Part shown: positions 10,246-13,583 of the stretch, piece after piece
How positions within the stretch are numbered: the stretch's first letter is position 1
How the letters are laid out: every line of letters begins with the position of its first letter
NCBI GenBank assembly: GCA_030145195.1
Contig: JAQYVY010000010.1
Span: 1 to 64,000 of the forward strand
Length of the DNA stretch: 64,000 bases
Direction: 5' to 3'
Source of the DNA: Desulfuromonadales bacterium
GTDB lineage: Bacteria > Desulfobacterota > Desulfuromonadia > Desulfuromonadales > BM103
The notes under the pieces: generated by a model
What the model was told of the DNA's origin: nothing
The model's input: the letters and a program-made list of their open reading frames with translations, nothing else
The model's database searches: none
Translations under genes and position numbers: made by a program

Positions 10246-11160
10246 CTATTTTGGTTGCGGCAGAAAGGCGCTCTTATCCTGATCCCAATAGTAACGACCC
10301 GCATCCCACAGGCCCTCCAGATCATCCCAATCAATGTGGACACCAGACATATCCTCAATGGTAAAGGACGCTTGCAACATCTCGGCATCGTCAATAGTAC
10401 CATTACCATCAGCGTCCGCCCAATGGAATGGAGCAACAGAAACTTTACTCTCGCCCTGAACCGGAACCGAAGACTGATTGCCTTCGGTTCCAGAGACAAT
10501 TTCACCGACAAAGGTCGTTTCGACATTGACCTTGGCGTCGTGATCGACCTGAAGCAGGTAAACAACCCGATCACGATTATCAGCAGCCTTAATAATCCAC
10601 CGCGCTACGCCGTTGATATTGTCAAGACTTGAGGCGGGCGGAAAAGCCTGCACGATTTTCCAGCCTTTGGGGAAATACTCCTTAAGAATGACCCCACCAC
10701 CTTTGGTCCGGTGAGTCAAAGTGATCTGTACTGGAATGGTACTACCCGGACTGGCAAAATTCTGCAGGGTCCTCAGCGCTGTTACTGCAACAGGTGGAAG
10801 TGGTTTCTTGGACATAAACGAAAACGATATCGACAAGACCACCAAACACAGCACCAGCAATCCGCCCCAGAGTGCTAGTTTCTTCTGGCGAGCGGGCGGA
10901 ACCGCTTCCTCAGCTTCCGATGCGGGCTGCTGGAGAATATCCTCCAAAGAAACTTCTAGAGCATCAGCCAGTTTCAGCGCATTTTCCCGCCGCATAGTCG
11001 GATATCGATTATTCTCCCAACGAGAAATAGTATCAGTCGTAACCCCGACAACCTTGCTGATATATAGCTGTGTCAACTGCTGATCTTCACGGATACGCTT
11101 TACCTGCTTGGCATCCAGACATACGGTTGATGATGTCGACGTATAGTTTTTTGTGTTCAT
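10246..11160 (-). CDS. Membrane-tethered HTH regulator with periplasmic EF-hand-like loop
   Basis: The product is 304 residues from the ATG at 11160 (MNTKNY), chosen over a longer frame that would run into the shared promoter region. An Xre-type HTH covers about 15-65 (LYISKVVGVTTDTISRWENNRYP). One membrane helix lies near 92-114 (LWGGLLVLCLVVLSISFSF). The periplasmic part has a domain from about 125 on and a canonical 12-residue EF-hand loop, DADGNGTIDDAE, near residue 252. It diverges from a cytochrome c7 gene, so it may sense a periplasmic signal and control that gene. This is inferred. The overall plan resembles RodZ, but the context and the EF-hand loop do not. Confidence 0.85.
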   Translation of the reverse strand: MNTKNYTSTSSTVCLDAKQVKRIREDQQLTQLYISKVVGVTTDTISRWENNRYPTMRRENALKLADALEVSLEDILQQPASEAEEAVPPARQKKLALWGGLLVLCLVVLSISFSFMSKKPLPPVAVTALRTLQNFASPGSTIPVQITLTHRTKGGGVILKEYFPKGWKIVQAFPPASSLDNINGVARWIIKAADNRDRVVYLLQVDHDAKVNVETTFVGEIVSGTEGNQSSVPVQGESKVSVAPFHWADADGNGTIDDAEMLQASFTIEDMSGVHIDWDDLEGLWDAGRYYWDQDKSAFLPQPK

Positions 11161-11391: not shown

Positions 11392-11664
11392 ATGAAGAAA
11401 CTGGTAATCATCATGATGCTGCTGGCATTTGTCGGTGTCAACGTTGCAATTGCTGCTGACAGCGTGACCTACGAGAACAAAAAAGGCACCGTAACTTTTG
11501 ACCACAAAACCCACGGTGAAACTCTCGGCGATTGCGCCAAGTGCCACGAAGGTGAGCCGGCAAAAATTGAAGTAGATAAAAAATCTGCCCATGGCGACAC
11601 CTGCAAAAGCTGTCACAAGGAAATGAATGGCCCGACCAAGTGTAACGACTGCCACAAGAAGTAA
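11392..11664 (+). CDS. Periplasmic triheme cytochrome c7 (PpcA family)
   Basis: This is a 90-residue precursor with a signal peptide (about 1-21, ending AIAA). The mature protein is about 70 residues with three heme sites, CAKCH, CKSCH and CNDCH, and separate His residues (FDHKTHGE) for the second axial ligands. Length, heme count and the VTFDHKTH pattern are those of PpcA-type cytochromes c7, which carry electrons through the periplasm to outer-membrane reductases. The site AAAGGAG lies 7 bases before the ATG. A strong terminator follows. Confidence 0.95.
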   Translation: MKKLVIIMMLLAFVGVNVAIAADSVTYENKKGTVTFDHKTHGETLGDCAKCHEGEPAKIEVDKKSAHGDTCKSCHKEMNGPTKCNDCHKK

Positions 11665-11684: not shown

Positions 11685-11722
11685 AAAAAAAAGGCGTCGG
11701 CTTCCCGACGCCTTTTTTTTTG
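11685..11722. terminator. Bidirectional-type terminator after cytochrome c7
   Basis: A 9-bp stem AGGCGTCGG (11692-11700) / CCGACGCCT (11705-11713) with loop CTTC, flanked by an A-run before and a T-run after. Confidence 0.92.
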
Positions 11723-11779
11723 AACCCGTTTTCACTCAACTTTCATAGATAATTTTCTCACAATTATCTCAAATTTTAG

Positions 11780-11808
11780 TTGTCACAAACCTGCGGTTTT
11801 GCTATAGT
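11780..11808 (+). promoter_or_regulatory. Sigma-70 promoter for the small RNA
   Basis: TTGTCA (11780-11785) and TATAGT (11803-11808) with an exact 17-base spacer. Start expected near 11815. No ORF follows; a structured region and terminator do. Confidence 0.7.
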
Positions 11809-11814
11809 GATTCA

Positions 11815-11889
11815 ACTCTTCGATTGCCTGCAAGCCGAAGAGACTATGGACCCCGCGTATCCCCCCCCTCCTTACGCGGGGTCTTTTTT
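11815..11889 (+). ncRNA. Candidate small RNA with anti-Shine-Dalgarno loop
   Basis: About 75 nt lie between the promoter and a T-run. Hairpin 1 pairs CTCTTCG (11816-11822) with CGAAGAG (11836-11842), with an inner TTG/CAA pairing. Hairpin 2 is the terminator, ACCCCGCGTA (11850-11859) with TACGCGGGGT (11873-11882), followed by six T. Its 13-nt loop is UCCCCCCCCUCCU, which contains the CCUCCU of the 16S rRNA 3' end. It is isolated from the cytochrome gene by a terminator and is convergent with the pyrophosphatase gene. I do not recognise the family. Confidence 0.65.
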
Positions 11890-11890
11890 A
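11850..11890 (+). terminator. Terminator of the candidate small RNA
   Basis: A 10-bp perfect GC-rich stem with a C-rich loop and a T-run at 11884-11889 on the plus strand. The minus strand has no T-run, so it does not serve the convergent pyrophosphatase gene. Confidence 0.85.
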
Positions 11891-11930: not shown

Positions 11931-13583
11931 TTAAAAGCCCTTAAATGCCCGCAACAAGTGAGGCATAAGTTGCTTCTTGCGTGACATAACACCTTTCAAT
12001 TCGAACAGTCCCGATTCAACCTGAGGATAACCGATGGTTGCCATCAACCCCTTGTCACCACAGACCATCATCAGACTATTCTGTTGCACAATATCGGTCA
12101 CCAACAACCCGGCTAAGGCAAGTCCGCGTCCGGCGACAAACTTCTCAAGTCCAACACGGAGCTCCTCCCGCCGTTCATTGAATTCCTGAAAAGTCACCAC
12201 CTCAATTTGACTGACACCGAAGCGAGTCTCCTCAACGGCATACTCCTTAAAATCAGACATCAAAAGAGCCTGGATCGTCGGATATTCCGCTAGTACACTC
12301 CCAGCCAGAAACATCTTCTGACCGAATTCAAGAGGATCGATTCCGGCACATGCGCCGAGCCAAGGTGCAAGCTCATGATCAACAGCAGTTGTCGTCGGCG
12401 ACTTAAACAGCACGGTGTCAGACAAAAGCCCGGACAGCAAGAGACCCGCAATTTTTGGCTCCGGGGTTATATTCGCCTGACGATAGAGAGTAGCGACCAA
12501 CGAACAAGTACTGCCAACCGGCTGATTAATAAAACGAATCGGCGCATCCGTATGAAAGTTGCCCAGTCTGTGGTGATCTATAACTTCGAGAATATCCACC
12601 TGGTCGGCGCCAGGAACCGACTGTGATAGTTCATTATGATCGACCAGAATCAATTTGAGCGATGAAGACCGCAGCAGGTTCGACTTTGTTGCAACCCCGC
12701 AGACCTGACCATCTTCAATAACCAATGCCCCCGGAGCGCGGCTACGCATCAGCACGACTCGAAGTTCATCGAGTCGATCATCCGGGTGAGCCCTTGGGAC
12801 ATCCGCCTCTGCCAGGTGGCGCACCGGAGTTGACATCCTTGCTAACAAGGCGCTGGTGGCTGTATCAAAAGGGCTTTGCAGAATCGACACACCATTATCG
12901 CGCGCCATAGCGACCAAATCGCCGTCAATCGACAGACCGCCCGTCACGATCAAGAGACGAACACCCATAGTGATGGCATCCTGATGAATTTCCCGGCGGT
13001 CTCCGGTTAAGACAATAGTTCGCTTGGGATCAACTCCGGCTAGATGCTTCTGGAATCCGGCACGGGACATGGCTCCGACGAAAAGTTCCAGCTCTTCGGT
13101 GCGTTCTGGATCATCAAGACAGACAGCCTCGGCTTGCAAACAATCCTGAACTGATGCGGGAGAAGTCAGAACCTGTCGAATCTGACGCCCTTCTCGCGGC
13201 AAAAAAATATGTTCAGGAAGACGCTTGAGAATCAATGCCCCCAGCGGCTGGCCGTCATCTTCGACAACTGGCAACATGCGAATATCATGTCGACGCATCA
13301 ACTCCAAAGCACGCATCAGGGGTGCATCCGCAACGATAACCGCCGGTTGACCTGAAAGGGTGTCACGTACTCGGGGATAAACATCGGTGAGCAGAACCGG
13401 CGGTTCCTGGCTAAGCGCTTCAAGCACAAACTCCGTCTGTCGGTTCAGATGCCCGGAACGCGCCGGGAAAACGTTGCTCCGCCCTTGTTTTCGACAAAGT
13501 TCAGCATAGGCTATAGCACTACAGATCGAATCGGTGTCTGGGTTACGATGACCAATCACAAAGATTTTTTCCGTATGGCTCAT
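11931..13583 (-). CDS. Putative manganese-dependent inorganic pyrophosphatase with CBS and DRTGG domains
   Basis: This 550-residue DHH-family enzyme has the N-terminal signature GHRNPDTDSICSAIAYA (residues about 11-27) and the metal-binding VIDHHRLGNF near 345. Between the two halves of the catalytic domain lie CBS-type sequences (LMRRHDIRMLPVVEDDGQP) and a DRTGG-like domain. This is the regulated form of family II pyrophosphatase, in which CBS domains bind adenine nucleotides. It hydrolyses pyrophosphate in the cytosol. It overlaps the next gene upstream by 4 bases, so it is the last gene of a three-gene minus-strand unit. Confidence 0.9.
   Translation of the reverse strand: MSHTEKIFVIGHRNPDTDSICSAIAYAELCRKQGRSNVFPARSGHLNRQTEFVLEALSQEPPVLLTDVYPRVRDTLSGQPAVIVADAPLMRALELMRRHDIRMLPVVEDDGQPLGALILKRLPEHIFLPREGRQIRQVLTSPASVQDCLQAEAVCLDDPERTEELELFVGAMSRAGFQKHLAGVDPKRTIVLTGDRREIHQDAITMGVRLLIVTGGLSIDGDLVAMARDNGVSILQSPFDTATSALLARMSTPVRHLAEADVPRAHPDDRLDELRVVLMRSRAPGALVIEDGQVCGVATKSNLLRSSSLKLILVDHNELSQSVPGADQVDILEVIDHHRLGNFHTDAPIRFINQPVGSTCSLVATLYRQANITPEPKIAGLLLSGLLSDTVLFKSPTTTAVDHELAPWLGACAGIDPLEFGQKMFLAGSVLAEYPTIQALLMSDFKEYAVEETRFGVSQIEVVTFQEFNERREELRVGLEKFVAGRGLALAGLLVTDIVQQNSLMMVCGDKGLMATIGYPQVESGLFELKGVMSRKKQLMPHLLRAFKGF

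Follow-up and report, generated by a model that had tools for sequence, protein, structure and literature searches.

A predicted small RNA (sRNA) in the window, by which we mean the whole 64,000-nucleotide stretch of Desulfuromonadales DNA that was analysed, carries a C-rich loop on its terminator hairpin that is kept in relatives across the order while the stem beneath it drifts. The best explanation is that the RNA acts in trans and that this loop probably pairs with G-rich Shine-Dalgarno (SD) sequences. Judged by its sequence features, it forms a new family within a functional kind already known, the C-rich-loop sRNAs, and is separate from 6C/B11, sX13, alpha-r14 and LhrC.

Gene structure and local setting

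The first-pass annotation had pointed to a promoter (TTGTCA-17-TATAGT), a hairpin and a terminator standing in an ORF-free gap. All of these were present at 11780-11889, and no ORF of at least 60 aa was found between 11674 and 11930. The hexamers TTGTCA (11780-11785) and TATAGT (11803-11808) are separated by a 17-nt spacer, and a TG at 11800-11801 makes this an extended -10 promoter. An RNA length of ~75 nt fits a start near 11815. The features of the locus are as follows.

11755-11771, plus strand: upstream element TTCTCACAATTATCTCA with half-repeats of TTCTCA, conserved 5' to the promoter of the sRNA in the majority of family genomes
11780-11785, plus strand: -35 hexamer TTGTCA, its TTG conserved in the family
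11800-11808, plus strand: extended -10, TGCTATAGT, with TTTGnTATA conserved in the family
11815-11889, plus strand: predicted sRNA of ~75 nt, with a putative start and the U-tract as its end
11816-11842, plus strand: hairpin 1, CTCTTCG / CGAAGAG, 7 bp, with a conserved loop containing GCCTGCAA (folding, family alignment)
11849-11883, plus strand: terminator hairpin, stem GACCCCGCGTA / TACGCGGGGTC, 11 bp, plus one G-U pair at 11848-11884 (folding, order-wide covariation)
11860-11872, plus strand: C-rich (anti-SD-like) terminator loop TCCCCCCCCTCCT, N-C7-TCC being invariant in alignment A3
11884-11889, plus strand: U-tract of the intrinsic terminator (sequence)

RNA folding of hairpin 1, the terminator and its six U residues gave -32.7 kcal/mol (z = -6.4). 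The terminator loop, UCCCCCCCCUCCU, comprises 13 nt (11860-11872), and the hairpin was missed by a stock terminator scan, which covered loops of at most 8 nt only. It had been proposed that this loop holds the bases of the 16S rRNA anti-SD; CCUCCU is indeed included, but the conserved core is C7-UCC and not the exact CCUCCUU. The sequence CCCCCCCTCC occurred once in the window against 0.14 occurrences expected. Promoters of such quality were found four times in 3 kb against 3.3 expected, and the single match alone is not significant. As chance alone would yield one match of this kind, the decision was left to conservation.

The sRNA interval sits between a plus-strand gene and a minus-strand gene. 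The upstream neighbour encodes a triheme class III/c7-type cytochrome (11392-11664; PF02085 over the cut-off, PF14522 just under it), and the neighbour on the other strand encodes a family II pyrophosphatase-like protein with DHH, DHHA2, DRTGG and CBS domains (11931-13583). A terminator at ~11693-11721, before the sRNA promoter, belongs to the cytochrome gene, and the sRNA is therefore a separate unit, which together with the conserved promoter agrees with the free-standing small RNA proposed at first. Cytochromes are a map neighbour of the sRNA only and are no evidence of its function.

Conservation within the family

A BLAST search with 121 bases located the RNA in 21 of 22 family genomes at 81-98% identity, the genome without it being 59% complete. 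In the strand-corrected family alignment the RNA was much more conserved than its flanks, and hardly any variation was seen in the -10 box with the preceding TTTG, in the TTG of the -35 hexamer, in the two hairpins or in the hairpin 1 and C-rich loops. All 18 pairs were kept in every family sequence, and three terminator-stem pairs were altered on both sides. Hairpin 1 had 100% of its cells paired, with two pairs varying from A-U to G-U, and its covariation is confined to such A-U/G-U changes.

The element at 11755-11771 is probably a regulator or UP-type site. Across the 22 family genomes, nine of the 11 exact matches to TTCTCACAAWTTTCTCA lay at the sRNA promoter, the window's own copy differing by one base, and this near-exclusive placement suggests dedicated regulation in the family. 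In one genome (G009) the TTCTCACAAWTTTCTCA-type element was expanded to several 11-bp direct repeats.

Order-wide conservation of a fixed loop in a drifting stem

With a covariance model built on the full-length RNA (R1), matches were obtained in 104 of 136 genomes of the order Desulfuromonadales. Outside the family, the terminator stem was of different sequence (GACCCCGUGUAC, AAGCCCGGUGAC, AGACCCGAGCCU and others), always complementary, and it enclosed an 11-nt loop, N-C7-UCC, whose UCC runs straight into the stem. In alignment A3 (20 sequences), 98.8% of cells were paired, 10 of 12 terminator pairs had changed on both sides, and 57 double-changed cells were counted against 13.8 in shuffles, with the loop invariant. 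These sequences, which lie behind the terminator covariance model (R2), were collected by loop pattern, so that the loop invariance is inflated and partly due to selection. This bias was partly answered by a class-wide search with R2 and by a loop-blind search near ppaC. When R2 was run on 200 genomes of the class, every match at E ≤ 1e-4 fell within Desulfuromonadales. In the 6 kb beside ppaC of 20 other genomes, chosen regardless of loop, nine of 24 strong terminators had a C-rich CCUCC-type loop, and these nine came from eight genomes in six families.

As a third test of this bias, an exact pattern scan of one genome per species (84,980 species) gave 69 matches. Forty-nine had 11-12 stem pairs and a U-tract and were regarded as genuine; all shared the loop N-C7-TCC and were labelled Desulfuromonadales (or its genera or families), 'Geobacteraceae', 'Deltaproteobacteria' or, once, Syntrophaceae. 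The remaining 20 had at most nine pairs, no U-tract, and came mostly from unrelated phyla. A record labelled Syntrophaceae bacterium UBA2192 (L229, DCVI01000198.1) carried a family-type sRNA with promoter and hairpin 1, and is probably a mislabelled or contaminated bin. Viral contigs gave three matches, one of them a genuine hairpin. On a phage or prophage contig (L279, IMGVR_UViG_3300037245_003904, minus strand 10996-11024), a terminator with a 12-bp stem and an identical ACCCCCCCUCC loop adjoins a terminase-like gene; it is possibly a phage copy, a mimic or the terminator of the adjoining minus-strand gene.

A promoter match of at least 9/12 stood just upstream of 61% of 56 order-wide copies, compared with 9.5% of shuffles. 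Because the loop is fixed while the stem changes, the loop is taken to be the selected part, a binding site presented by the hairpin. A stable C-run/UCC hairpin loop is thus selected independently of its stem, and conserved sequence features mark an independent promoter and terminator. The first-pass annotation had staked its proposal in part on conservation of loop and stems in relatives, and this held in the family and, with a compensated stem and a kept loop, across the order. The invariant C7-UCC loop and covarying stem are likewise consistent with the C-rich/anti-SD-loop type that it had suggested.

Tandem partner, further copies and neighbourhood

In many families the first sRNA is followed, 100-150 nt further downstream, by a second one that has a hairpin 1 of its own and ends in the terminator GCCCCGUGA-UACCCCUCCU-UCACGGGGC. 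The terminator loop of this tandem partner is (U)(A/U)CCCCUCCU, as exemplified by L085 (1681-1754), L096 (~381-476) and L132 (350-431). The partner was also seen near ppaC in families in which the first sRNA was not found. A recurrent gene order was observed, namely an HTH gene, cytochrome c7, (HAD phosphatase), sRNA A, (sRNA B), (DUF255 thioredoxin-like) and pyrophosphatase, and since this neighbourhood recurs the sRNA locus is probably ancestral. The window contains sRNA A and lacks sRNA B.

Copies were also located in records of another family (Malonomonas/Geopsychrobacter) next to hypE and genes for a GAF-histidine kinase and a ferritin-like protein, these neighbours being named from sequence without a domain scan. 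The genome from which the window comes (G000) has three more C-rich-loop intrinsic terminators (CCCUCCCCCCCUCC, UAUCCCCCCUCC and AUCCCCUCC), which are likely paralogous or analogous sRNAs. The further C-rich terminators of this genome are placed as follows.

C20, 15488-15528, minus strand: C-rich terminator
C86, 21696-21737, plus strand: C-rich terminator
C49, 26493-26531, plus strand: C-rich terminator

Relation to known RNA families

In Rfam searches at gathering and permissive thresholds, no family reached threshold for the window RNA, the tandem partners or the further copies, in line with the first-pass view that the RNA belongs to no known family. The window RNA scored 19.7 bits against 6C RNA (RF01066; gathering 47) and 17.0 bits against anti-hemB (RF02837; gathering 49.5), to which tandem partners scored 26-32 bits (best 32.3). 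For the Betaproteobacteria toxic small RNA (RF02278; gathering 50), the window RNA was unlisted even at E ≤ 5 and a tandem partner scored 28.5 bits. A tandem partner gave 24.1 bits against alpha-r14/cuckoo (RF02344; gathering 58.8) and 23.6 bits against sX13 (RF02232; gathering 50).

Likeness to described RNAs is one of kind. The 6C/B11 RNAs of Actinobacteria are hairpin sRNAs whose C-run loops act on G-rich mRNA leaders and repress them (PMC10470900); however, they have two C-rich loops and belong to a different phylum, whereas here only the terminator loop is C-rich and the hairpin 1 loop is of the GCCUGCAA type. The Betaproteobacteria toxic small RNA is a double-hairpin RNA that has CU-rich unpaired regions and occurs several times per genome (PMC5688073, PMC4603805), but the CU-rich stretches of its Rfam consensus lie in the 5' region and within hairpin 1 instead of the terminator loop. 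Alpha-r14/cuckoo of Alphaproteobacteria shows the same pattern of evolution, an invariant anti-SD motif in loops whose stems are free to differ (PMC10746234), yet it consists of three hairpins each with CCUCCUCCC, in contrast to two hairpins and one C-rich loop here. In Xanthomonas sX13 and Helicobacter RepG/HPnc5490, C-rich loops (UCCCCCU) require G-rich motifs near start codons, and ~5% of Xanthomonas genes have G-rich motifs at the ribosome-binding site (PMC3771888); sX13 has three hairpins and, beyond the C-run, no sequence homology to the present RNA. LhrC of Listeria is multicopy, and a C-rich (UCCC) motif in its terminator loop helps to bind the SD region of the target (PMC4132741), although it carries three redundant motifs per RNA, is 111-114 nt long and belongs to Firmicutes. 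In the open-access literature, no trans-acting sRNA of Desulfuromonadales, no Desulfuromonas small RNA and no matching Desulfovibrio RNA was found described, which is not proof of novelty.

Alternative explanations

It is very unlikely that the RNA belongs to one of the anti-SD sRNA families already described (6C, Betaproteobacteria toxic sRNA, alpha-r14/cuckoo, anti-hemB or sX13) and is underscored by the Rfam models. The weak full-length matches listed above speak for such a membership, but all are below the gathering thresholds and stem from two GC-rich hairpins plus a U-tract; moreover, several of these families carry their C-rich or anti-SD motifs within hairpin 1 or spread over more than one loop, and in the class-wide and species-wide searches the RNA here is restricted to one order. 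A further reading takes the locus for no more than an efficient terminator, serving the cytochrome gene or separating the two facing genes, whose loop is a curiosity and which has no function as an RNA; this would account for the textbook terminator at the end and its placement between a plus-strand and a minus-strand gene. It is highly improbable, since a terminator of the cytochrome gene already stands ahead of the promoter, conservation extends to the promoter and hairpin 1, the loop stays constant on a variable stem, and copies occur in unrelated neighbourhoods, such as beside the histidine kinase and ferritin-like genes. That the locus encodes a short peptide (ATGGACCCCGCGTATCCC...) is hardly credible: the ATG before the terminator in the window and part of the family is replaced by TTG or missing in other genomes, in G002 the loss of a C alters the reading frame, the changes track base pairing rather than codons, and the region lacks an ORF of at least 60 aa. 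A minus-strand reading, with a G-rich loop and an SD-like sequence, was rejected, as it has no conserved ORF and an ATG in one genus only.

CsrB-type RNAs titrate CsrA, and the C-rich loop might similarly bind a protein or translation factor, the RNA being a titrating decoy whose several copies raise the dose. The very strict loop on a free stem, the multiple copies per genome and the tandem pairs would suit such a decoy, but it is considered unlikely. We know of no bacterial poly-C-loop-binding regulator of this type, and instead of resembling a GGA site of CsrA, the motif shows complementarity to the SD region. Furthermore, the loops vary between copies (C7UCC, CCCCUCCU, UCUCCUCCCUG) with SD complementarity kept in all.

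Proposed mechanism and candidate targets

The fixed loop, its SD complementarity, the presence of Hfq and the precedent of sX13, LhrC and B11/6C make loop-SD pairing the most likely mode of action. Transcription of the ~75-nt RNA would begin at a sigma-70-type promoter of its own and stop at the intrinsic terminator, with the large terminator loop as the putative active site. The single-stranded C7-UCC(UU) loop, complementary in sequence to (A)AGGAGGGG, would pair with G-rich SDs of that form in a limited set of mRNAs, block ribosome binding and thereby lower translation. Hfq, which is encoded in all 42 good-quality genomes examined, the present one included, would probably be held at the U-tract. 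Pairing of C-rich loops with G-rich ribosome-binding sites or leaders is experimentally supported for sX13 (PMC3771888), LhrC (PMC4132741) and B11/6C (PMC10470900). The computed pairing of the loop was -17.0 kcal/mol with AAGGAGGGG compared with -9.9 kcal/mol with AAGGAGGU, and G-rich extended SDs would therefore be favoured.

The first-pass annotation had envisaged a broad regulator, and the target counts do not support this breadth: the genome has 10 extended complementary start sites (AGGAGGGG-N2-9-ATG) against five for the reversed control. In the window, GGAGGG occurred within 22 nt before the first ATG in two of 51 ORFs of at least 150 aa, a rough count with uncurated starts. A restricted regulon is as likely as a broad one. 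A search for AGGAGGGG-ATG in six genomes recovered hflC in three and radC and others in two, and few candidate sites recurred between genera, which leaves hflC as the best and only recurrent candidate. Most family genomes and two other families have AAGGAGGGG at the hflC start, with AAGGAGGU, GGGAGG or GGGGG elsewhere; the site overlaps the last codons of hflK, and its conservation may therefore be coding. The hflC start site AAGGAGGGG is unusually G-rich (L307, G000:C48, hflK-hflC junction). A search with AAGGAGGGGG-ATG was discarded, as it gave mostly chance or in-CDS matches, with radC recurrent in one genus only.

Implications

Almost every genome of the family has the sRNA, and it is widespread across the Desulfuromonadales, an order of metal- and sulfur-respiring bacteria. 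It would add a further lineage to those with C-rich loops aimed at G-rich ribosome-binding sites, beside Actinobacteria, Alpha-, Beta- and Gammaproteobacteria, Firmicutes and Helicobacter, and it may offer a handle on post-transcriptional control, as well as a one-site hypothesis, in extracellular-electron-transfer bacteria. More far-reaching, and doubtful on present evidence, is an order-wide core riboregulator, in which the ancestral tandem sRNA pair and further copies, with terminator loops mimicking the 16S anti-SD, would together read a graded code of G-rich SDs (or titrate a translation factor). If true, this would constitute an order-wide control layer over translation initiation in electroactive bacteria.
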